From positions 349,360 to 413,359 of the forward strand of contig NZ_QLLN01000001.1 in NCBI RefSeq assembly GCF_003259375.1: DNA of 64,000 nucleotides, in the 5' to 3' direction. A program made the translations under genes and the position numbers. The notes beneath the pieces are model-generated. The model was not told the origin of the DNA. It searched no databases and worked only from the letters and a program-made list of their open reading frames with translations. Positions 4,096-63,276 of this stretch are shown in pieces. Every line of letters begins with the position of its first letter. Position 1 is the first letter of the stretch. This DNA comes from Arenibacter echinorum (GTDB taxonomy: Bacteria; Bacteroidota; Bacteroidia; Flavobacteriales; Flavobacteriaceae).

Positions 4096-5631
4096 TCAGT
4101 TCTTTCTGCGCACCTCAAAAATATCCGTTCTTCTATCCTTTAGGTTTCTAACGCTACCAAATTGGTTTAGTTCCCTCAGTAGATCTATATCCAGGTCAAC
4201 GATCAGAATCATTTCGGTATTTGGTGTGGCTTCGGCCTTTATCCCATTGGCTGGAAAAGCAAAATCACAGGGGGTAAATACCATGGATTGGGCATATTGA
4301 ATGTCCATATTATGTACCTTGGGCAAGTTGCCCACGCTTCCTGCAATAGCTACATAACATTCATTTTCAATGGCCCTGGCCTGTGAACAATTTCTGACCC
4401 TGGAAAAGCCATTTTGGGTATCGGTTAGGTAGGGAACAAATAGAATATCCATTCCTTCATCTGCCAATAACCTACTCAATTCCGGAAATTCGGAATCGTA
4501 GCAGATCAGGACACCTATCTTTCCGCAATCCGTGTCAAATACCTTTAGTTCGTTGCCTCCTTGCATGCCCCATACCTTTGCCTCGTCTGGAGTTACGTGG
4601 AGTTTTTCATATCGCTCCTTGGTACCATCTCTTTTACAGACGTAACCAACATTGTAAAGCCCTCCATCTATTATTTCTGGCATACTACCTGTAATAATAT
4701 TGATGTTATAGGAAATTGCAAATTCAGAAAATCGTTGTACGATAGTGGCCGTGTGTTGGGCTAACTCTCTAATAGCAGCAGACTCTGATAAATGATTGTT
4801 CTCTGCCATTAAGGGAGCATTAAAGAATTCAGGAAACAGGGCAAAGTCTGAGCGATACCCGGAAACGGCATCTATAAAATACTCTGCTTGTTGAAGTACA
4901 TCATCTAGATTTTTATAGGGTCGCATTTGCCATTGAATGAGCCCTACCCGTACTACCTTTTTTATGACGCTTGCCTTTATGTTCTTTTTTTCATAATAAA
5001 TGTTGTCCCACTCCAAAAGCACGGCGTAATCGTCCGAAGCTGAGTCACCTTCCAAATAGTTTTTTAGAATTTTACTGGGATGGAAATCGTTGGAAATCTG
5101 AAAATTAAGTACGGGGTCGTTTATTTCCTTTTGCTTTACTTTTTCTATATACTCCTTGGGCGTGATACTATCCATGTATTTATGATAGTTGGGAATTCTG
5201 CCGCCAAAGGCAACCCCTCGCAAGTTTAAGCGTTCACAAAGGTCTTTTCTGTAGTCGTATAACCTTCTGCCCAAACGCATTCCCCTATATTCCGGTTTTA
5301 TAAAAACATCGATACCATAAAGTACATCCCCATCCGGAGAATGGGTATTAAATGTATAATTGCCAGTAATCTGTTGGTAGGTGTGTTTGTCTTCAAATTT
5401 GCTATAATCCAAAATAATGGACAATGCACAGCCGGCTATATGGCCATTTACTTTTATAACTACTTGGCCCTCGGGAAATCTGTTTATCAGATTTTCTATT
5501 TGATGCTCCCGCCAGTAAGATTCGGGCATAGTGGTATAGGATTCAATCATAGCAGTTTTAAGCTCTTGATAGTCATCCACACCTAAGTACAATAACTCAA
5601 TATTTTCTATTTCTTCCATCTTCATGGTCAT
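4096..5631 (-). CDS. GNAT acetyltransferase fused to a carbon-nitrogen hydrolase
   Basis: The 511-residue protein joins two enzymes. Residues ~1-210 form a GNAT N-acetyltransferase (acetyl-CoA loop region GMRLGRRLYDYRKDLC). Residues ~225-505 form a nitrilase-superfamily amidohydrolase with the Glu-Lys-Cys triad visible as FPEFFNAP, YEKLHVTPDE and VLICYDSEFPE. This two-domain architecture is known from other bacteria and usually annotated as a bifunctional protein; the physiological amide and acyl acceptor are not known to me. The start has three close Met codons (residues 1, 3 and 5), so the true start may be 6-12 nt in. The gene ends near the GC-rich intergenic stretch and follows rluF on the same strand after a 37-nt gap, so the two may share a transcript. 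Confidence 0.85.
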   Translation of the reverse strand: MTMKMEEIENIELLYLGVDDYQELKTAMIESYTTMPESYWREHQIENLINRFPEGQVVIKVNGHIAGCALSIILDYSKFEDKHTYQQITGNYTFNTHSPDGDVLYGIDVFIKPEYRGMRLGRRLYDYRKDLCERLNLRGVAFGGRIPNYHKYMDSITPKEYIEKVKQKEINDPVLNFQISNDFHPSKILKNYLEGDSASDDYAVLLEWDNIYYEKKNIKASVIKKVVRVGLIQWQMRPYKNLDDVLQQAEYFIDAVSGYRSDFALFPEFFNAPLMAENNHLSESAAIRELAQHTATIVQRFSEFAISYNINIITGSMPEIIDGGLYNVGYVCKRDGTKERYEKLHVTPDEAKVWGMQGGNELKVFDTDCGKIGVLICYDSEFPELSRLLADEGMDILFVPYLTDTQNGFSRVRNCSQARAIENECYVAIAGSVGNLPKVHNMDIQYAQSMVFTPCDFAFPANGIKAEATPNTEMILIVDLDIDLLRELNQFGSVRNLKDRRTDIFEVRRKN

Positions 5632-5668
5632 ACTATTAAAATTAAATTAGGGGGTAGTTGTTTTGTTA

Positions 5669-6403
5669 TTACTTGTGATGGGTCTTTGTGGAATCGGAAA
5701 TCATTTCATTGATTTCACTTAATTCCTTTTCGGATAAATATCGCCATTTTCCAACGGGAACGTCCAACTGAATATTCATGATCCTAATACGTTTTAAGGC
5801 GGTTACATTGTAGCCCAGATACTCGCACATTCGCCTTATCTGACGGTTAAGCCCCTGAGTTAGAATGATCCTGAATTGAAACTTATCTATTTGCTCAATT
5901 TCACATTTACGGGTTACCCTATCCAAGATGGGAACCCCATTGGCCATTTTTTCTAGGAAAGCCTTGGTAATGGGCCTATCAACGGTAACTATATATTCTT
6001 TCTGGTGTTTATTTCTGGCCCGTAAAATCTTATTTACAATATCTCCATCATTGGTCAATAGAATTAATCCTTCACTGGGTTTGTCCAACCTTCCAATTGG
6101 GAATATTCTGCTTGGGTAATTGATGAAGTCGATAATATTGTCCTTTTCCACCCTGGTGTCGGTTGTACAAACAATGCCAATAGGTTTGTTAAAGGCAATG
6201 TATACTGGCTTTTCTTGAGGTTCGGAAATAAGTTCTCCATCTACGCGTACCTCGTCGTCCAGGGTAATTTTGGTGCCCATTTCGGGAACTTTTCCGTTAA
6301 TGGTTACCCTTCCCTGGTCAATAAGTTTGTCCGCGGCCCTTCGCGAACAATACCCCATTTCGCTTAAAAACTTGTTTATTCGGGTGGCTTCCTTCTCTTT
6401 CAT
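5669..6403 (-). CDS. rluF: 23S rRNA pseudouridine synthase, RluF type
   Basis: The 244-residue protein has an N-terminal S4 RNA-binding domain (ATRINKFLSEMGYCSRRAAD) and a RsuA/RluF-type synthase domain with the catalytic aspartate motif GRLDKPSEGLILLTNDGD. The RNA-contacting segment GLNRQIRRMCEYLG and the phrase KEYIVTVDRPIT match RluF more than RluB or RsuA. RluF isomerises a uridine in helix 74 of 23S rRNA. A real Shine-Dalgarno (AAGGAG) sits before the ATG, which is uncommon in this window, and a 10-bp hairpin lies directly upstream of it. Confidence 0.9.
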   Translation of the reverse strand: MKEKEATRINKFLSEMGYCSRRAADKLIDQGRVTINGKVPEMGTKITLDDEVRVDGELISEPQEKPVYIAFNKPIGIVCTTDTRVEKDNIIDFINYPSRIFPIGRLDKPSEGLILLTNDGDIVNKILRARNKHQKEYIVTVDRPITKAFLEKMANGVPILDRVTRKCEIEQIDKFQFRIILTQGLNRQIRRMCEYLGYNVTALKRIRIMNIQLDVPVGKWRYLSEKELSEINEMISDSTKTHHK

Positions 6404-42452: not shown

Positions 42453-43256
42453 ATGGGCCTGTTTAAGAAAAATCCGTTTGGACATAATTTGTTTATCAAG
42501 AAGTGGCTTATTCGCATTCTGGCCGTTATCACCCACAAAAGATATAGGGGATTTAATACCATTGAAATTGAGGGGTCGGATATTATTAGAAAACTGCCTC
42601 CACAAAATGTTCTTTTCGTAAGTAACCATCAAACGTATTTTGCCGATGTGGTAGCCATGTTCCATGTATTCAACGCCAGTTTAAGCGGCCGGGAAGATTC
42701 TATAAAAAATTTGGGATATATATGGCAGCCCAAATTGAATATGTATTATGTGGCGGCGGCAGAAACCATGAAGAAAAGTCTTTTGACAAAAATCTTGGCA
42801 TACGCGGGTTCAATAAGTGTGGAGCGTACTTGGAGGTCCGAAGGACAGGATGTTAATCGGAAGGTTAAATTTAGTGATATATCCAATATTGGTACTGCTC
42901 TCAATGATGGTTGGGTAATTACCTTTCCACAAGGAACCACAACTCCCTGGAAACCGCTAAGAAAAGGAACATCCCATATTATAAAAAAATACAGGCCCGT
43001 AGTGGTCCCTGTGGTCATTGACGGTTTTAGGCGATCTTTCGATAAAAAAGGACTGCGCATTAAAAAGAAAGGAATTCTTCAGTCTATGGTGATCAAGGAA
43101 CCATTGGATATTGATTATGAGAATGAATCTTTCGATTCCATCATTGAAAAATTGGAATATGCCATAGAGCAACATCCTTCCTTTTTAAAGGTTATTCCCA
43201 AAAGTGAGTTAATGGCTTATGAAGAGGAAAATAAAAAACGGAAATTCAGGGTTTAA
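42453..43256 (+). CDS. 1-acyl-sn-glycerol-3-phosphate acyltransferase-like (PlsC family)
   Basis: The 267-residue protein has the PlsC motifs SNHQTYFAD (catalytic His-Asp) and ITFPQGTTTPWKPLRKGT (acceptor-phosphate motif, usually FPEGTRS). The spacing in the first motif is HX5D, not the usual HX4D. It likely makes phosphatidate or a related acyl-lipid at the inner membrane. The stop overlaps that of the convergent gene. Confidence 0.85.
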   Translation: MGLFKKNPFGHNLFIKKWLIRILAVITHKRYRGFNTIEIEGSDIIRKLPPQNVLFVSNHQTYFADVVAMFHVFNASLSGREDSIKNLGYIWQPKLNMYYVAAAETMKKSLLTKILAYAGSISVERTWRSEGQDVNRKVKFSDISNIGTALNDGWVITFPQGTTTPWKPLRKGTSHIIKKYRPVVVPVVIDGFRRSFDKKGLRIKKKGILQSMVIKEPLDIDYENESFDSIIEKLEYAIEQHPSFLKVIPKSELMAYEEENKKRKFRV

Positions 43257-43900
43257 ATATCCATTTCCTTCAGTTCCTTATAGTTCTTCTTAAGTTTCTT
43301 TAGGAGGATTCCGTAAAGTAAAAAATAAATGCATCCCATTACTAGGGTAACAACTATCCCGAGAACGACCACTGTAGATATCAAAATGGTCTTTAATTTT
43401 TCAGGGCTAATATTTTCTGGCTGATAGTTATATCCCATCGCGGCCATAGGGTCTTCGTTCAAGTATATTCCTACGGCCATGACAATAAAGGACATGAATA
43501 TCAGGGACAAACAAAAAATAACATAGTATTTAACTGTCTTTCTGGTCTTTAAAATATTGGATAGAAGCTTTTTGGCATTGTCCAAAGTTGATATTTCCCT
43601 ATATCTTCTATAAAATTGAAAGATAAAATACAGTACCACGGTATATTGAAGCACGTTGGAAATCAATAAAAAATTCCCCAGGCCCAGATCTTTCCAAACC
43701 GCCAAATTTTTGGACATAGAAGGAAGAAAGTACAATAAGTGGGGCACTAAAAATTCAATAATGCTTATTAAGAAAATCCATTTAACGATGGAAGACGATT
43801 TCTTCCATATCATTTTATAAATCTCATCAAAGGACAGTTGAGGCAATTGCTTGTCTTTCTTTTGCCAATCCCTTTTTAATAATTCCAGTTCATCCATCAT
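43253..43900 (-). CDS. Four-TM membrane protein, candidate anti-sigma partner
   Basis: The 215-residue protein begins with ~40 cytosolic residues (LELLKRDWQKKDKQLPQLS) followed by four TM helices (around 38-58, 75-95, 122-145, 170-200) and a Lys-rich tail. It lies 4 nt downstream of an ECF sigma factor gene, so the first ~40 residues may hold the sigma factor at the membrane. It has no FecR or zinc-anti-sigma motif. Database entries of this type are sometimes labelled beta-carotene monooxygenase without basis; I do not support that. Confidence 0.72.
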   Translation of the reverse strand: MMDELELLKRDWQKKDKQLPQLSFDEIYKMIWKKSSSIVKWIFLISIIEFLVPHLLYFLPSMSKNLAVWKDLGLGNFLLISNVLQYTVVLYFIFQFYRRYREISTLDNAKKLLSNILKTRKTVKYYVIFCLSLIFMSFIVMAVGIYLNEDPMAAMGYNYQPENISPEKLKTILISTVVVLGIVVTLVMGCIYFLLYGILLKKLKKNYKELKEMDI

Positions 43901-43904
43901 ATGG

Positions 43905-44399
43905 CTAGGGATTTAAAATGGTTTTTAACTTGTTTTTTATTCGGTTCATTTTCACTCTGGCATTTACCTCAGTAATACCCAAGGTTTCCGCTATTTCTCT
44001 ATAGTCTTTGTCTTCCAAGTAAAGAAAGACCAAGGCCTTATCTACATCCCCTAATTGCCTTACCGCATTGTACATCAGTTTAAGCTGTTGTTCCTCGGTA
44101 GGGTCGTATTCGTCTGCTGTTATTTTAAACATGACCGACTCATAATCTTGGGTCGGTATACTTTTTTTTGATTTTCTATATAATGTTATGGCAGTATTCA
44201 GCGCAACCCGATACATCCAGGTACTAAATTTGGATTCTCCCCTAAATTTGGGATAGGCCTTCCACAATTGAATCGTTATTTCCTGAAATAAATCATTGTG
44301 GGAATCCCTATCATTGGTGTACAATGTACAGACCTTATGCACAATATTCTGATTGCACTCTAATTCCGTAACGAATTGATGTTCCAAATCTTTGGTCAC
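43905..44399 (-). CDS. ECF RNA polymerase sigma factor (sigma-70 family)
   Basis: The 164-residue protein has regions 2 (DLFQEITIQLWKAYPKFRGE, STWMYRVALNTAITLYRK) and 4 (VFLYLEDKDYREIAETLGI) of ECF sigma factors, with a DNA-binding HTH at the C-terminus. The start codon is GTG at 44399. No sensor domain is fused. It precedes a four-TM protein by 4 nt, the usual position of a membrane regulator. Confidence 0.92.
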   Translation of the reverse strand: MTKDLEHQFVTELECNQNIVHKVCTLYTNDRDSHNDLFQEITIQLWKAYPKFRGESKFSTWMYRVALNTAITLYRKSKKSIPTQDYESVMFKITADEYDPTEEQQLKLMYNAVRQLGDVDKALVFLYLEDKDYREIAETLGITEVNARVKMNRIKNKLKTILNP

Positions 44400-56328: not shown

Positions 56329-57651
56329 ATGAGTAGAATCCTTCCTATAAAGGGCAGTAAAAAATTATTAAACGCTTGGGCATTTTATGATTGGGCGAAT
56401 TCTGTTTATAGCCTTGTAATTTCGTCTGCCATATTTCCTATTTTTTATGGAGCCCTGTTTCGAGTGGCCGGAATAGAGAAGGTTACAGTCTTTGGTGGAG
56501 AAATTGCCAGAGCACCCCTAATAAGTTATGTTACCTCGGCAGCGTTCTTATTTATAGCCTTAATAACACCAATTTTATCTGGTATTGCAGACTATTTGGG
56601 GAACAAAAGGCTCTTTATGAAGTTGTTTTGTTACTTGGGAGCCTTGTCCTGTATAGGGCTATACTGGTTTTCCCTGGAGAATATTTACTTCAGTCTGGTT
56701 TGTTATTTTTTTGGATTGGTGGGATTTTGGGTAAGTTTTGCCTTTAACAACTCTTACCTGCCCGATATTGCTTTTCCAAGACAACAGGATAGAATTAGCG
56801 CAAAAGGCTTTTCACTGGGCTATATAGGAAGTGTTATTTTACTGCTATTTAATTTGGCAATGGTCATGAAGCCCAATCTCTTTGGGATAGAAACCGACGC
56901 TCGTGGAATCGCCGAAATTAAGGCTATGAGGTATTCTTTTCTAACGGTAGGCCTTTGGTGGATAGGGTTTTCCCAGTATAGTTTTTACTTTCTTCCCAAG
57001 GGGTTTAAAAGGGAAGGGGTTAGGCAACATGTAATTCTTAATGGTTTTAGGGAGCTAAAAAATGTATGGCATCAAATTGGGGGGCAAATAAAATTGAAGC
57101 GATATTTGGCCGCCTTTTTTATCTATAGCATGGCCGTGCAGACCGTGATGTTGATTGCCACTTATTTTGGGGAAGAGGAGATTCAATGGTCTTCAGATTC
57201 CGAAAGGACTACAGGATTGATAGTTAGTATCCTTCTTATTCAGCTTGTTGCCATTGCCGGGGCAACACTTACGGCCAGGGCATCCAAAACTTTCGGCAAT
57301 ATTGGGACACTTATTGTGGTGAATATACTCTGGGTATTGATTTGCATTTATGCTTATTTTTTGATCACACCTATGGATTTTTATATAGCTGCAGGGTGCG
57401 TCGGAATCGTTATGGGGGGAATCCAGGCACTTTCTAGGTCCACATATTCCAAATTTATTCCAGAAACCATAGATACGGCATCGTTCTTTAGTTTTTATGA
57501 TGTAGCGGAAAAGATAGGAATTGTAATAGGTACCTTCTTATATGGTTTTGCGGCCCAATATTTTGGAAGTATGCGATATGCCATTATTTTGCTCGGATTG
57601 TTTTTTATGGCAGGAGCATTTCTTCTGACCAGAGTAAATAGGGCCAATTAA
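56329..57651 (+). CDS. MFS transporter, UMF1 (Atg22-like) family
   Basis: The 440-residue protein has 12 predicted TM helices and the UMF1/Atg22-type markers AWAFYDWANSVYSLVISSAIFP-like N-terminus, ISGIADYLGNKRLFM-like loop and GGIQALSRSTYSKFIP. Such carriers export amino acids or small metabolites; the substrate here is unknown. The ATG directly follows a terminator, so the gene may depend on its own promoter or on read-through. It is convergent with the next gene. Confidence 0.88.
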   Translation: MSRILPIKGSKKLLNAWAFYDWANSVYSLVISSAIFPIFYGALFRVAGIEKVTVFGGEIARAPLISYVTSAAFLFIALITPILSGIADYLGNKRLFMKLFCYLGALSCIGLYWFSLENIYFSLVCYFFGLVGFWVSFAFNNSYLPDIAFPRQQDRISAKGFSLGYIGSVILLLFNLAMVMKPNLFGIETDARGIAEIKAMRYSFLTVGLWWIGFSQYSFYFLPKGFKREGVRQHVILNGFRELKNVWHQIGGQIKLKRYLAAFFIYSMAVQTVMLIATYFGEEEIQWSSDSERTTGLIVSILLIQLVAIAGATLTARASKTFGNIGTLIVVNILWVLICIYAYFLITPMDFYIAAGCVGIVMGGIQALSRSTYSKFIPETIDTASFFSFYDVAEKIGIVIGTFLYGFAAQYFGSMRYAIILLGLFFMAGAFLLTRVNRAN

Positions 57652-57679
57652 ATCTGAGTTATTAAGGGAGTGTTTTCCT

Positions 57680-58405
57680 TTAATGTTGAGTGATATCCCC
57701 GGATCCTGAAACTTTAGTGTCAATTCTTTCAGGATTGCCCCGATAATCTATATCGCCCGAACCCGACACTTTTGCAATTATTTCCTTAATGGCCGTCACC
57801 TTAACATTTGCAGAACCCGAAACCGTGGCATCCACGTTGTCGGCAATTAGGTCATAGGCATTGATATCTCCCGATCCCGAGATGGAAGCAACAAAATCAC
57901 TTGCTTTTCCACTTAAGGCCATATCCCCGGAACCGGACATGCTTGCTTTTAAGGAATTTACATCCAGAGCTATGATAATGTCACCGGAACCAGATATAGC
58001 GGTTTCAAAATTATTGGCCTTTAAGGTCTTTTTGCCAACAATCTCCCCCGAGCCGGATAAGCTCAAGGCCGAAATACTTTCCACAGGAATGGTTATGGAA
58101 ACCCCTCTTTTCCATGAAGTCGGATTTAGGTTATATCCGTTTTTTACTTTTATCGTTAATTTGTCGCCCTTTACTTCGGTAATAATATGGTCCAATATAT
58201 TTTGTTCCCCCTCCAATGTGAGCATACCTTCCTTGCCATCTACCAACTCAATATCAAAGAAACCTGAAATAGCTATTTGATCATAGTCCTTTGTTGTTCT
58301 CACTAGGGTAACCTGATTGCCGCTACCATTTATTTTATCGTTTCTTTGGGCACTAAAACTGCCAATGATAAATAGACTTAGTAGGGTGGTTGTTAAGTGT
58401 TTCAT
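57680..58405 (-). CDS. Head-GIN domain protein (DUF2807), exported
   Basis: The 241-residue protein (ATG at 58405, after a longer frame with no signal peptide) has a signal peptide (about 1-20) and a DUF2807 right-handed beta-repeat domain with many SGSGD/SGSAN repeats (about 10 turns). The head-GIN family is surface-exposed or periplasmic and of unknown function. It is the last gene of the sigma-factor operon. Confidence 0.83.
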   Translation of the reverse strand: MKHLTTTLLSLFIIGSFSAQRNDKINGSGNQVTLVRTTKDYDQIAISGFFDIELVDGKEGMLTLEGEQNILDHIITEVKGDKLTIKVKNGYNLNPTSWKRGVSITIPVESISALSLSGSGEIVGKKTLKANNFETAISGSGDIIIALDVNSLKASMSGSGDMALSGKASDFVASISGSGDINAYDLIADNVDATVSGSANVKVTAIKEIIAKVSGSGDIDYRGNPERIDTKVSGSGDITQH

Positions 58406-58421
58406 ATTTTTCTGTTTAACG

Positions 58422-59513
58422 TTATTTTTTATTAAATGAAATCCCGCCATATTCACTGGTAATAGTCATTAGATTACCACTGTTTTGCCTTCCGTAAAAG
58501 CCTTTCAAATATTTTTGGTTGGATTTTTCATTGCTAATGTTTATCTCAAATTCATCCTTTCCGCTTACTCCGGCATATTTTGTATCAATTTCAAAATCGA
58601 AATGATAGGCTGGGGAATAACCTATTTTTATGCCGGTGTATTCCGTGTTTATCTTTAGGTTTTTGGCATCGGGTGCCATCTCGTCAATTCTCACCGATCC
58701 GTAGCTGGATTTTATATCCATGTTGCCGTGTATTGTTCCCAAGCTTACATTTATATAATCTCCATTGCCCTGAACATTTCTGGCCTCCCCGATTTCCAAT
58801 TTACCATAATCGCAAACATAGGACAGATCTTCCATTGTCTGTACAGTGGCATTGGTGTAGTCGGCAACGATATCCAGATTTCCTGCCTTTTCAATGGTAA
58901 AGCCGGAATAATCGGCATTGATTTTACCGCTGTTGATATATCCTATTGTGGATTTTGAAGTATAATCGAAGGATAATTGGTTGCTTCTGCCGTGCAGTTC
59001 CCCAATTTCCAATCGGCCATAGTCGCAATTAATTTTGGCGTGGCCGTCTATTCTGTCCAATATAATACTGCCGTAGTCGTTACTGAGATTAACACTGTTC
59101 TTAACGGGGATTTTTACCGTATAGTTTACCTGCATATTTACAGTATTGCTATTGCCCCAATTCCATCCCCAACTATTTTTATCCTTGTTAAAGACGGTAG
59201 AGGCAGAAACCATAGTGCTGTTGCCCTCAAAATCCACGGTGATTTCATCCAGCTTACGCTGTACCTTATCTTCGTTGTCCCCAGTGGTCTTAATATGTAC
59301 CTCTATAGTTATCCTATCCTGGTTCCAAGAGCTTATATTTAAATTACCATAGCTATTGTCTATTTTCAATAAGGCTTCCAAATTTACTTTGTACTCTTTT
59401 TTAATGGTTTTTTCCTTGGTATACTTCCCTCTGGGCATATCATTGTTGGAAAAGGAACTAATGGGAACAAGCCATAATAGGGCGAGTATATATCTAAGCG
59501 GTAATATTTTCAT
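58422..59513 (-). CDS. DUF4097-like beta-repeat envelope protein
   Basis: The 363-residue protein (ATG at 59513; a longer frame to 59564 overlaps the upstream gene) has a signal peptide (KILPLRYILALLWLVPISSFS) and repeated beta-strand turns such as LKIDNSYGNLNISSW, DYGRLEIGE and SSYGSVRIDEM, as in DUF4097 proteins. It resembles the following head-GIN protein in fold. Function unknown; likely in the envelope. Confidence 0.8.
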   Translation of the reverse strand: MKILPLRYILALLWLVPISSFSNNDMPRGKYTKEKTIKKEYKVNLEALLKIDNSYGNLNISSWNQDRITIEVHIKTTGDNEDKVQRKLDEITVDFEGNSTMVSASTVFNKDKNSWGWNWGNSNTVNMQVNYTVKIPVKNSVNLSNDYGSIILDRIDGHAKINCDYGRLEIGELHGRSNQLSFDYTSKSTIGYINSGKINADYSGFTIEKAGNLDIVADYTNATVQTMEDLSYVCDYGKLEIGEARNVQGNGDYINVSLGTIHGNMDIKSSYGSVRIDEMAPDAKNLKINTEYTGIKIGYSPAYHFDFEIDTKYAGVSGKDEFEINISNEKSNQKYLKGFYGRQNSGNLMTITSEYGGISFNKK

Positions 59514-60054
59514 TTTCGTAGTTTTTAAAATTTTTAATTTCTTCAATTTGTTCCAACACTTCATTCAAAAGATCTATTCTGGTCTGAAAATTGGTAATCA
59601 TGGCGCTTAATATCAATTTGCTATTGCCGCCATCCAATAGATCCTGCTCCATCTTTTTGTAATCGTGGTCCAAGTTCCTAAGTTGGATCATGGTATCGTC
59701 AATCAATTTTTGAGTCTCGGGCGTACTTTCGTTTTGCATTTTTTTTACCTGATCCTCTATAACACTGGCAAAATAGTATTCCGAGTTCGTGATTTCCGGG
59801 GAAATTTTGGAAACCTGCTGCTGCACGCTTGGGGATGTGTAAAGGAAATGGAATCCTATGCTGCACAATATTAGGATGGCAGCGGCTATGGATAGTGGCT
59901 TCCATCCGAAGCGCTTCTTTTTGGTTTTTACTACCACTTTGGACGAGGCTTCTAATTTTGCCAAGAACCTTTGTCTGTGTCCATCTACCGGTTCCGAGGT
60001 ATCAAAGGAGCCCTTTAATTCCCCAAACAGTTTGTCTAAATCATCAGTTTTCAT
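59494..60054 (-). CDS. Candidate anti-sigma factor with one TM helix
   Basis: The 186-residue protein has ~50 cytosolic residues (DDLDKLFGELKGSFDTSEP), a single TM (SIAAAILILCSIGFHFLYT, about 54-72) and a helical extracytoplasmic domain. It overlaps the sigma gene by 11 nt. Position, topology and size fit a membrane anti-sigma factor, but no known anti-sigma signature was recognised. Confidence 0.75.
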   Translation of the reverse strand: MKTDDLDKLFGELKGSFDTSEPVDGHRQRFLAKLEASSKVVVKTKKKRFGWKPLSIAAAILILCSIGFHFLYTSPSVQQQVSKISPEITNSEYYFASVIEDQVKKMQNESTPETQKLIDDTMIQLRNLDHDYKKMEQDLLDGGNSKLILSAMITNFQTRIDLLNEVLEQIEEIKNFKNYENENITA

Positions 60055-60607
60055 GGTATTCGGTATTTAATTTCTGTCTAAGGCTTTCTTTGGCCCTTGA
60101 AATCATTGTTCTGCAATTGGCATAACTCAAATTCATTATTTCGCTTATTTCTTCGTAATCATACCCTTCAATTAAATGTAAGGTCAAAGAAATTCTGTAA
60201 TTGTCTTTTAACAGCTTCATGGTTTCAATCACTTTTTGAGCCTTTAGTTCAATCATTCCATTATCTGGGACACATCCATCGTTGTCTTCGACCTTGTACA
60301 TTACATTTCCAAGATCTACTTCTTGGCGTTTCAACCTCTTTTTATATTGATGAATACTATTGTTGACCACAATTCGTTTCAGCCAGGCTCCAAAGGAAAC
60401 TTCTCCCTTAAATTGGTCCAATTTGGTCAGTGCACTTAATAGCGATTCCTGCATTACATCTTCTGCAATGGCGCTGTCTTTTACAATCCTATAGGAAACA
60501 TTGTACATTCCCTTGTAATAGCGATTGTAAATCTCTAATTGCGCGTTCCGGTTGCCATTCAAGCACAATGGTATCAACTCATCAATATGTCTCTTTTCTA
60601 GGCTCAA
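60044..60607 (-). CDS. ECF RNA polymerase sigma factor (sigma-70 family)
   Basis: The 187-residue protein has region 2 (YNVSYRIVKDSAIAEDVMQE, FGAWLKRIVVNNSIHQYKK) and region 4 (LTLHLIEGYDYEEISEIMNL). The start is TTG at 60607, since no ATG precedes residue 34. It leads a four-gene minus-strand operon with overlapping or short spacings. Confidence 0.9.
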   Translation of the reverse strand: MSLEKRHIDELIPLCLNGNRNAQLEIYNRYYKGMYNVSYRIVKDSAIAEDVMQESLLSALTKLDQFKGEVSFGAWLKRIVVNNSIHQYKKRLKRQEVDLGNVMYKVEDNDGCVPDNGMIELKAQKVIETMKLLKDNYRISLTLHLIEGYDYEEISEIMNLSYANCRTMISRAKESLRQKLNTEYHEN

Positions 60608-60790
60608 AAAGGTAATGGTTTGCTTAATAGATGAGGTAATTTAGGGAATGTTACAGTTTATTTATAAAAAGATTCTCTTTGTTGGCATAAGAATTGCCCA
60701 AATAGAAATAAAAGGAAATGCTAGAATCCTCAACCTACTGATTATTATAGGGAAAGTAGGTATACAAAGGATTTAATATAAATTATTTTT

Positions 60791-60814
60791 CTGTCTTTGA
60801 ATGACAGAATGACC
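60791..60814 (+). promoter_or_regulatory. Inverted and direct repeat directly upstream of lon
   Basis: CTGTC (60791-60795) and GACAG (60803-60807) form an inverted repeat, and GAATGAC occurs twice at an 8-nt period in the same segment. The string TGTCTTTG (60792-60799) is one mismatch from the -7 consensus. The element lies 12-35 nt before the ATG and could be a stress-response operator. Confidence 0.45.
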
Positions 60815-60825
60815 GAAATTAGAAT

Positions 60826-63276
60826 ATGGCTAAAACAAAAAACATACAATTTGACACTATGTCATTTCACGGGATTGATGAGGATGCGGAGTTAATACCC
60901 TTGATGACACCTGAAGATGAGGAGGAAATCAACAATGAAAAGTTACCCGAAACCTTGCCTATATTACCATTGCGCAACACTGTGTTGTTTCCCGGGGTAG
61001 TTATTCCAATAACAGCAGGGAGGGATAAGTCCATTAAATTGATAAAGGATGCCAATAACGGATCAAAAGTTATTGGTGTGGTAGCTCAAAAAGATGAGGA
61101 AACAGAGAATCCTGGCGTAAAGGATATCAATACTCTGGGGACTGTGGCAAGAATTTTAAGGGTGCTGCAAATGCCCGATGGAAACACAACCGTGATCATT
61201 CAGGGTAAAAAACGATTTGAAGTGGCCGAAGTGCTTACCGAAAAGCCTTACATCACCGCCACTGTGAGGGAAACAACAGAAGTTAGACCGGCACGTGAAG
61301 ACAAGGAGTTTAGGGCCATCATAGACACTATAAAAGAACTGTCATTGCAGATTATTAGGGACAATCCCAATATTCCCAGTGAGGCTTCTTTTGCCATAAA
61401 GAATATACAGAGCGATTCTTTTTTGATAAATTTTGTCTCCTCCAACCTCAATTTGAGCGTAAAGGATAAGCAGGAATTATTGGAGATCGGAAGTTTACAG
61501 GATCGTGCATTGGCCACCCTTAAATATATGAACATTGAGCTTCAGAAGCTGGAACTTAAAAATGATATTCAGTCCAAGGTCCGAACTGATATGGATCAGC
61601 AACAGCGGGAGTACTATCTTCATCAGCAAATGAAAACCATTCAAGAGGAATTGGGTGGACTTTCTTATGAAGAGGAAGTGGATGAGATGCGCAAAAAGGC
61701 CAAAAAGAAGAAGTGGAACAAAGACGTTGCCGAACATTTTGAAAAGGAATTGGCAAAAATGCAACGGATGAATCCGCAGGTGGCGGAGTATTCCATTCAA
61801 CGTAATTATTTGGATTTGTTTTTGGACCTTCCCTGGAACGAATATTCCAAGGATAAGTTCGATTTAAAAAGGGCCCAAAAAATATTGGACAGGGACCATT
61901 ATGGTCTGGAAGATGTTAAAAGAAGGATCATTGAATATTTGGCGGTGCTAAAATTGAGGAATGACATGAAATCGCCTATCCTATGCCTGTTTGGACCTCC
62001 GGGAGTTGGTAAAACCTCCTTGGGCAAATCTGTGGCCGAGGCTTTGGGAAGGGAGTATGTGAGAATTTCACTAGGTGGTCTCAGGGACGAAGCCGAGATT
62101 CGCGGGCACCGTAAAACTTATATAGGAGCCATGCCCGGTAGAATTGTTCAAAGTTTAAAAAAGGCGGGTAAGTCGAACCCTGTTTTTATTTTGGACGAAA
62201 TAGATAAGCTGTCCAATAGTCATCAAGGTGATCCTTCCTCGGCTATGCTGGAGGTTTTGGATCCGGAACAGAACAATGAGTTTCACGATAACTTTTTGGA
62301 AATGGGTTACGACCTTTCCAAAGTAATGTTCATTGCTACGGCCAACAGCTTATCGGAAATACAGCCTGCCCTTAGGGATAGAATGGAAATTATACACGTA
62401 ACCGGGTATACCATAGAGGAAAAGGTGGAAATTGCCAAGAGGCATCTACTGCCAAAGCAGTTAAAGGAGCATGGTTTAAGTGTAAATCATCTGAAAATTG
62501 GCAAACCTCAATTGGAAAAGATTGTCGAGGGCTATACCAGGGAATCCGGGGTTAGGTCTTTGGAAAAACAAATAGCCAAAATGGTGCGTCATGCCGCGAA
62601 ATCCATAGCAATGGATGAGGAATACAACCAAAAGGTTTCCTTTGAAGATGTAGAAAAGGTTTTGGGACCTGCACGAATGGAAAGGGATAAGTACGAGAAT
62701 AATGACGTTGCCGGTGTTGTTACAGGATTGGCCTGGACCAGTGTTGGTGGGGATATTTTATTTATCGAGTCCATTTTGTCCAGGGGAAAAGGTACCCTGA
62801 CCATTACCGGTAACTTAGGTACGGTGATGAAGGAGTCTGCCACGATAGCCATGGAGTATATTAAATCCAATTCGGATAGGTATGGTATTGATCCAGAAGT
62901 ATTTGATAAGTACAATGTACATATTCACGTTCCGGAAGGGGCTACTCCAAAAGACGGTCCCAGTGCGGGGATTACCATGTTGACCTCCTTGGTATCCTTG
63001 TTTACCCAGAAAAAAATAAAGAAGAGCTTGGCCATGACGGGAGAAATTACCCTAAGGGGTAAAGTGCTTCCTGTAGGAGGAATAAAGGAGAAGATTTTGG
63101 CCGCAAAGCGAGCGAGAATTAAGGAGATCATTCTTTGCGAGGATAACAGGAAGGATATTTTGGAGATCAAGGAGGATTATTTAAAGGGCCTTACTTTTTA
63201 TTATGTGAACGACATGCAGGAGGTGATAGATATTGCCATTACCGATGAGTCCGTTAAAAATGCAAAGCAACTTTAA
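60826..63276 (+). CDS. lon: ATP-dependent protease Lon
   Basis: The 816-residue protein has the N-terminal LON substrate-binding domain ([19 protein letters not shown]), a coiled-coil region, the AAA+ domain with Walker [13 protein letters not shown] and Walker [10 protein letters not shown], and the C-terminal protease with Ser in [10 protein letters not shown] and Lys in [12 protein letters not shown]. It degrades damaged and regulatory proteins in the cytosol. A strong terminator follows. Confidence 0.97.

Follow-up and report, generated by a model that had tools for sequence, protein, structure and literature searches.

A probable autoregulated ECF sigma/anti-sigma unit with an exported Toastrack-fold protein in Arenibacter echinorum and other Bacteroidota

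Among the genes encoded in a 64,000-nucleotide stretch of the Arenibacter echinorum genome (contig NZ_QLLN01000001.1, positions 349,360 to 413,359 of the forward strand; hereafter the window) is a run of four co-directional genes on the minus strand (60607-57680), comprising those for an extracytoplasmic function (ECF) sigma factor, an anti-sigma-like protein, a DUF4097-like protein (here also DUF protein) and a head-GIN protein (Table 1). We consider it fairly likely that this run is an envelope-response module of Bacteroidota in which an ECF sigma/anti-sigma pair regulates its own expression and whose main output would be its own exported Toastrack protein, and the unit is probably a signalling unit in many related bacteria. 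The proposal draws on gene order, its conservation, a promoter-like sequence and topology signals, all read from the sequence, and on predicted folds. A first-pass annotation of the window had listed the four-gene set on this strand and had placed an ECF sigma factor and a single-transmembrane (TM) anti-sigma candidate in one operon-like run; the set is present as claimed, and the pairing is borne out by family matches and topology. The arrangement is more than chance, its order recurring across other genera and families.

Conservation of the unit was assessed with an anti-sigma profile built from 25 sequences. A search of 395 genomes from the phylum with this profile, scoring up to eight candidates per genome, gave a match at E<=1e-3 in 80/395 genomes. 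The 80 regions considered below consist of all 77 places with E<=6.8e-11 and three from the close-relative search (L177-L179). All 80 have an ECF sigma gene immediately upstream of the anti-sigma gene, and the gene immediately downstream is of DUF type in 73/80 according to the first profile and in 75/80 according to a broader one, which adds L153 and L162. Some circularity remains in these counts, since the anti-sigma profile was built from cassette members. In the reverse test, a DUF profile was run over the same 395 genomes (up to five candidates scored per genome), and 61 of the 62 DUF places with E<=1e-30 were found beside sigma and anti-sigma genes: 59 in cassettes already known and two more (L180, L182), with a single place (L181) standing alone. 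Nineteen DUF places outside the 80 regions, mostly remoter ones (L180-L198, the three just named among them), include seven with sigma, anti-sigma and DUF genes and nine without sigma; in L183, L197 and L198 a sigma and a DUF gene are separated by an unrecognised gap, the sigma of L198 being a fragment. Close DUF relatives are tightly linked to the cassette, and with growing distance the link weakens. Frequent separation of the two halves in other genomes had been named beforehand as a finding that would count against a common function; the DUF gene instead stays with the sigma/anti-sigma pair at the rates given above. Judged from these sequences, the sigma-anti-DUF unit is old.

The same order was seen in 80/80 of the best 80 named loci, a rate that is conditional because these loci were chosen by DUF search; a GIN gene was called in 78 of them, the other two being L230 (A. 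latericius), which lacks it, and L231, which ends shortly past the DUF gene. Zobellia loci (L251, L265, L267, L277) are among those with the operon. The nearest named locus among the matches listed belongs to Arenibacter algicola, with a DUF protein 95% identical to that of the window. Searches recovered the DUF protein from 25 of 40 close-relative genomes (own genome counted) and the anti-sigma protein from 26. Sixteen genus members, own included (L009-L024), carry sigma, anti-sigma and DUF genes in order, and both the DUF and the anti-sigma protein are missing from two others (G008 and G012), where there is no room for the operon because the flanking lon and major facilitator superfamily (MFS) genes are ~310 bp apart.

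These flanking genes, named by reading their translations, lie divergently upstream (lon, 60826-63276) and convergently downstream (MFS-type, 56329-57651), and they bear on the reading that the sigma/anti-sigma and beta-helix genes share the lon/MFS site by ancestry and not by function. The setting itself is indeed conserved: of the best 80 named loci, 61 have lon and 69 have the MFS gene, several of the others being incomplete at their ends. The other two cassettes of the host genome sit elsewhere but keep the sigma-anti-DUF set, as do cassettes in other families, and in G008 and G012 the operon and its promoter are missing together while lon and MFS are retained. A mere chance or housekeeping neighbourhood is largely refuted by these observations, and we regard it as very improbable.

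The sigma factor scored well above the Pfam cut-offs for Sigma70_r2 (50.4 bits, cut-off 24) and Sigma70_r4_2 (45.9 bits, cut-off 25.7), and with sigma regions 2 and 4 only and a length of 187 aa (expected ~190 aa) it has the ECF architecture. Its TTG start codon is found at an identical position in L009-L028 and L059 and may keep the sigma factor scarce. In one of these loci (L028, genome G020), an in-frame stop interrupts the sigma stretch, reflecting either an error or decay; the assembly is 80% complete.

The sequence preceding the sigma gene is a predicted promoter, resembling ECF-type promoters in which the -10 element is CGT-like. The genus consensus consists of AAACTGTAACA, 15 nt and CATCTATTAA or a near variant, the spacer sequence being kept as well. 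A window-type promoter with at most one mismatch in the specified bases is present in 16/16 operon-bearing genus genomes, the exact window site occurs once in its own genome, and a script check found the pattern on neither strand at the operon-less loci of G008 and G012. Across the 80 regions, the pattern G[TC][AC]AC, 16-17 nt, [CAT][AG]TC was found within 130 nt before sigma in 65, compared with a mean of 0.77 and a maximum of 4 in 100 dinucleotide shuffles, and a narrower pattern with 15 nt was found in 39/80 (0.29 in shuffles). When up to two mismatches were allowed, the window-type site gave 132 matches in 18 genus genomes, 16 of them being the operon promoter; eight and ten matches fell in the operon-less genomes G008 and G012, respectively. 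Nothing points to further targets of the window-type site, because its 116 non-operon matches compare with 113 for the reversed pattern in the same 18 genomes. A CGT-type -10 element has been reported for the SM6 promoters of Flavobacterium psychrophilum (PMC9723704), where a sigma/anti-sigma pair is likewise among the genes of its own promoter. Unlike the window unit, SM6 is linked to type IX secretion system (T9SS) genes; the species has seven ECF sigma factors, one of which may be a relative of the window's.

The 186-aa protein encoded by the second gene is a putative anti-sigma factor, expected from its position and topology to bind the sigma factor. In the predicted structure (all-helical; predicted local distance difference test score, pLDDT, 84.9; built from a 72-sequence alignment), short cytoplasmic helices at residues 4-13 and 26-36 precede a TM helix (52-71) and a periplasmic helical bundle (77-182). 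Among 189 unique relatives, all have a single TM-like segment (median start at residue 54), 182 have the more positive N-terminal flank of an N-in/C-out bias, and none has the Hx3Cx2C motif. Class I anti-sigma factors are recognized by a four-helix cytoplasmic domain of at least 50 aa, often with Hx3Cx2C; the window protein has two short helices before the TM segment instead, and no class I anti-sigma family was found among the Pfam matches of the protein or of 72 relatives. The modelled arrangement corresponds to class II (CnrY-like) proteins, which have a short two-helix cytoplasmic part followed by one TM helix, and in CnrY these two helices wrap the sigma factor (PMC7406223). Class II binding places helix 1 on sigma region 4 and helix 2 on region 2. 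The window protein differs from the CnrY-CnrH pair in carrying a periplasmic helical bundle in the same polypeptide and in having a Toastrack protein as partner.

Database searches added little to this assignment. No Pfam or NCBIfam family scored above cut-off for the anti-sigma protein, and one relative (L143) reached 26.4 bits with the anti-sigma model of NCBIfam, a weak match given its cut-off of 100. A fold search with the model returned nothing at E<=0.001, and a profile search of solved structures gave unrelated-looking helical matches (best E 0.0028, fibrinogen); no CnrY chain was among its 18 matches at E<=1, although short helices may escape such a search. Three candidate labels were set aside: DUF4179 (17.1 bits, cut-off 30.1), DUF3379, which 11/72 members match too weakly for use (best E 0.00099), and a weak similarity of the model to a chemoreceptor sensor domain (E 0.7). 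The N-terminal helix and TM part recurs in 12 proteins (L309-L320), hand-picked from 65 weaker rows of the anti-sigma profile search because they match chiefly in that part, each of which is encoded directly beside an ECF sigma factor. Five of the seven that were scanned have Pfam matches (E<=0.001) outside the shared segment, namely a TonB plug with a VWA domain and a T9SS tail, VWA/YfbK, and outer-membrane barrels (one below cut-off). These varied outside domains beside ECF sigma factors support the idea that a shared N-terminal anti-sigma segment may carry exchangeable sensors.

The third protein is predicted to take the Toastrack/DUF2807 fold. Its model (pLDDT 90.9; 51-sequence alignment) aligned by VIA-align with structures 3lyc, 3ljy, 3jx8 and 4opw at Z 16.9-17.4 (root-mean-square deviation 2.7-3.1, 214-221 residues) and with 4qrk at Z 10.7; in Foldseek the best match was 4qrk (4.8e-9), with low TM-scores (0.18-0.34 in the top 16). 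The top row of the VIA-align output, tied with the Toastrack structures, was a chain of the Legionella Dot/Icm secretion complex (7muc_AM, Z 17.8). The label DUF4097-like holds in part: the window protein has no Pfam match at E<=0.01, whereas 2/51 members of its alignment match PF13349 (best 2.8e-10) and the predicted fold agrees with it. When the DUF alignment was used as a profile against solved structures, nothing useful was returned. Hydropathy indicates a signal-peptide-like N-terminus in 181/183 DUF relatives, and further TM-like segments were found in 0/183.

In the head-GIN protein, PF10988 (DUF2807) scored 175.7 bits (cut-off 24.2), and its relatives of solved structure are 3jx8 (2.5e-24) and 3lyc (2.1e-20). 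The earlier remark that the two beta-repeat proteins resemble each other agrees with their common beta-helix fold; their suggested location at the cell surface does not follow, both window proteins having signal-peptide-like starts without a lipobox cysteine, as judged by eye. No outer-membrane translocator, as the "autotransporter adhesin" in the name of PF10988 would imply, was detected, DUF2807 alone being above cut-off in the 241 aa. A signal-peptide-like N-terminus was present in 30/31 head-GIN relatives. The presence of two beta-repeat proteins is not the rule, since a head-GIN gene was found within 2.5 kb downstream in 31/80 regions. In the window-type clade of 32 cassettes it is missing only from L124 and L133, and in the genus operons it follows in 11/16. 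Of these 11 copies, that of L018 is split between two frames and that of L016 aligned only from residue 20; in L020-L024 the 1.5-kb flank gave no match. The host genome has eight GIN genes (nine matches, two in one open reading frame), of which seven have no sigma, anti-sigma or DUF gene within 1.5 kb, the window copy being the only one with anti-sigma and DUF genes. The head-GIN protein is a looser addition to the unit and behaves like a free effector.

Taken together with the class II-like model, these features suggest how the unit may work. In the resting state, the 186-aa protein would use its two short cytoplasmic helices to keep the sigma factor at the inner membrane, as class II anti-sigma factors such as CnrY do; an envelope signal acting on the periplasmic helical bundle would free it, and the freed sigma factor would transcribe chiefly its own operon. 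Exported Toastrack-fold proteins (the DUF4097-like protein in nearly all cases, the head-GIN protein in some lineages) would then accumulate in the periplasm or further out. The DUF4097-like protein would be the core partner and main output; with less certainty, it may also act in feedback by contacting the periplasmic part of the anti-sigma protein. Self-induction of this kind has a precedent in Bacteroides thetaiotaomicron, because deletion of the anti-sigma gene dma2 strongly raises its neighbouring genes, which are among those most induced (PMC13088901).

If the beta-helix proteins were response products only, acting as envelope scaffolds or adhesins with no part in signalling, their genes would be expected where they are, downstream in an operon that is probably autoregulated and beyond which the window-type site has no regulon that we could see. 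Deletion of a DUF2807 protein in Porphyromonas gingivalis affects biofilm formation and attachment (PMC10949514), and sigma/anti-sigma pairs persist without a DUF gene in 4/80 regions. An effector of general role should, however, also occur apart from the switch, and 61/62 close DUF relatives do not. We rate this purely effector function somewhat below an even chance.

A different role for the DUF4097-like protein is suggested by the sigma-E system, in which the TM anti-sigma factor RseA has a periplasmic domain and RseB binds RseA and sets its stability. The window unit resembles RseA-RseB in combining a TM anti-sigma candidate bearing a periplasmic domain with a possible periplasmic partner encoded adjacently, and differs from it in the folds. 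By analogy, the DUF4097-like protein could be chiefly a periplasmic co-regulator that binds the anti-sigma bundle and sets its stability, the head-GIN protein being an effector where present. The near one-to-one pairing of DUF and anti-sigma proteins, with a separate DUF protein for each of the three host cassettes, agrees with such a role, but a dedicated output would equally predict conservation of the pair, and the four sigma/anti-sigma pairs without a DUF gene speak against it. Co-divergence offers a hint only of contact between the DUF protein and the periplasmic part. In 126 window-type orthologues (DUF protein >30% identical to that of the window), the periplasmic part co-diverged with the DUF protein (partial r 0.52, corrected for sigma and the cytoplasmic part; 0.44 to 0.64 in 60% subsamples) and the cytoplasmic part did not (partial r -0.13; -0.24 to -0.01), but the periplasmic part co-diverged almost as much with sigma (0.43). 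The order was reversed in the other 57 cassettes (cytoplasmic part 0.44, periplasmic part 0.34), and sliding windows gave mixed results. A chiefly regulatory DUF protein appears possible to us, though improbable. The broader idea that this is an undescribed, class-wide Bacteroidota ECF system, with a class II-like anti-sigma family that has no Pfam model and a bundle gated by a cognate exported Toastrack protein in RseA/RseB fashion, copied several times per genome with matched partners, is likewise put forward as speculation that we think will more often than not prove wrong.

Several observations weigh against the proposed autoregulated module with the DUF4097-like protein as its main output. 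L167, L168, L169 and L171 are the regions with a sigma/anti-sigma pair and no DUF gene, without any co-directional gene >150 aa close behind, and L178 has a head-GIN gene in place of DUF; because such pairs exist, the DUF protein is not strictly needed. Stand-alone relatives may have been overlooked, because both genome searches scored no more than the top candidates of each genome. The promoter patterns were drawn from genus sites and paralogues and picked after the sequences had been viewed, and 15/80 upstream regions lack the more inclusive one. Other sigma targets may also exist, because the -10 element varies across the family and the search covered window-type sites. Finally, direct coupling analysis of 183 sigma/anti/DUF triples (effective number of sequences, Neff, 105) revealed no clear contacts, even within proteins, and was set aside; its top DUF/anti-sigma coupling pairs sit at the DUF start and the anti-sigma end, where the reading frames overlap.

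Among described systems, Dma/Das of B. thetaiotaomicron (PMC13088901) likewise combines a Bacteroidota ECF sigma factor with an N-terminal anti-sigma part and a TM helix. Dma, however, has a long tether and a C-terminal outer-membrane beta-barrel, whereas the window protein, with its 186 aa, has a periplasmic helical bundle of ~110 aa, and the window unit includes a separate exported beta-helix protein. As in the phage shock protein (PSP) and Lia systems, whose Toastrack partners include DUF4097, DUF2154 and DUF2807, a Toastrack fold appears to be coupled to transcription control; the PSP/Lia Toastrack proteins are predicted to be intracellular and have PspC, LiaI-LiaF-TM, SHOCT-like or PadR partners (PMC11237479). 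The Toastrack protein of the window, in contrast, has a predicted export signal and is encoded together with an ECF sigma factor and a TM anti-sigma candidate, and neither PspA nor PspC is among the Pfam matches of the four operon proteins. Toastrack genes with an operon-linked sigma factor have been noted in a DUF2089 context (PMC11237479). The first-pass annotation had held the system to be undescribed as a signalling unit, and we found no description of the sigma/anti-sigma/Toastrack unit in the literature searched, including the available portions of PMC10434189 and PMC12596196; an unnamed listing in supplements or in the ECF classification is possible.

Class I anti-sigma genes neighbour just 6% of Bacteroidetes ECF sigma factors (PMC7406223), and where they are so rare the unit offers a defined and widespread candidate brake in the form of a short two-helix segment. 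It also ties the orphan Toastrack/DUF2807 fold, for which "adhesin" is largely a matter of naming, to what is likely an envelope response. The unit is compact (four genes, ~3 kb), its promoter is predicted, and each downstream part has been lost somewhere in nature, which makes the choice between sensor and effector directly testable.

The host genome has three cassettes, that of the window and those at ~651 kb on contig C1 and ~258 kb on contig C6, each with its own DUF-type partner. In a midpoint-rooted FastTree tree of 85 cassettes, the three fall in separate groups, with a support of 0.46 for the group of the second (L101). Their DUF partners measure ~363, 365 and 504 aa and do not form three size classes, and the second is 20% identical to the first, that of the window. 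Behind the second-kind cassettes of L155 and L156 come first a protein of 222 to 225 aa (2075-2743 in L155) that looks outer-membrane-like by eye and then GIN, and in L147 the GIN gene and the outer-membrane-like small protein (5180-5818) lie upstream; the two such proteins that were scanned have no Pfam match. Cassettes of the third kind in L117 and L120 are followed by a protein of 230 or 231 aa, that of L120 matching peptidase M23.

Table 1. Features of the unit in the window, with coordinates and strand
Feature	Position	Strand	Description
ECF sigma factor	60044..60607	-	187 aa, TTG start; Sigma70_r2 and Sigma70_r4_2 above Pfam cut-offs
Anti-sigma-like protein (putative)	59494..60054	-	186 aa; single TM; always 3' of an ECF sigma gene (80/80 regions)
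Exported DUF4097/Toastrack-fold beta-helix protein (predicted)	58422..59513	-	363 aa; predicted fold and signal-peptide-like N-terminus
Exported head-GIN (DUF2807) protein (predicted)	57680..58405	-	241 aa; PF10988 above cut-off
Predicted ECF-type operon promoter	60624..60655	-	TGTAAC ... CATCTATTAA (-35/-10 like), ~16 nt before the sigma start codon

The four genes had been described as overlapping. This applies to the first three, the sigma and anti-sigma genes sharing 11 nt and the anti-sigma and DUF genes 20 nt; the head-GIN gene lies 16 nt beyond the DUF gene, a gap without overlap because the starts at 59513 and 58405 were adopted. For the DUF4097-like protein, ATG 59513 was preferred over 59564, and for the head-GIN protein ATG 58405 over GTG 58456, each choice giving a signal peptide. 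No RNA above the Rfam threshold was found in 57000-61500, and three of the operon's proteins have no match in PHROGs.

Elsewhere in the window, a second ECF-sigma-looking gene (164 aa, by eye) lies on the minus strand beside a gene for a membrane protein of 215 aa that belongs to another type (43253-44399). Two elements precede lon on the plus strand. One (60682-60697) resembles a sigma-54 -24/-12 element (TTGGCA...TTGC) and is retained in operon-less relatives; lon of F. psychrophilum is listed with a sigma-54-type (SM4) promoter (PMC9723704). The other is a short element, CTGTC...GACAGAATGACCGA, located right before the lon start (60791-60816) and largely kept in genus members and at the operon-less loci.

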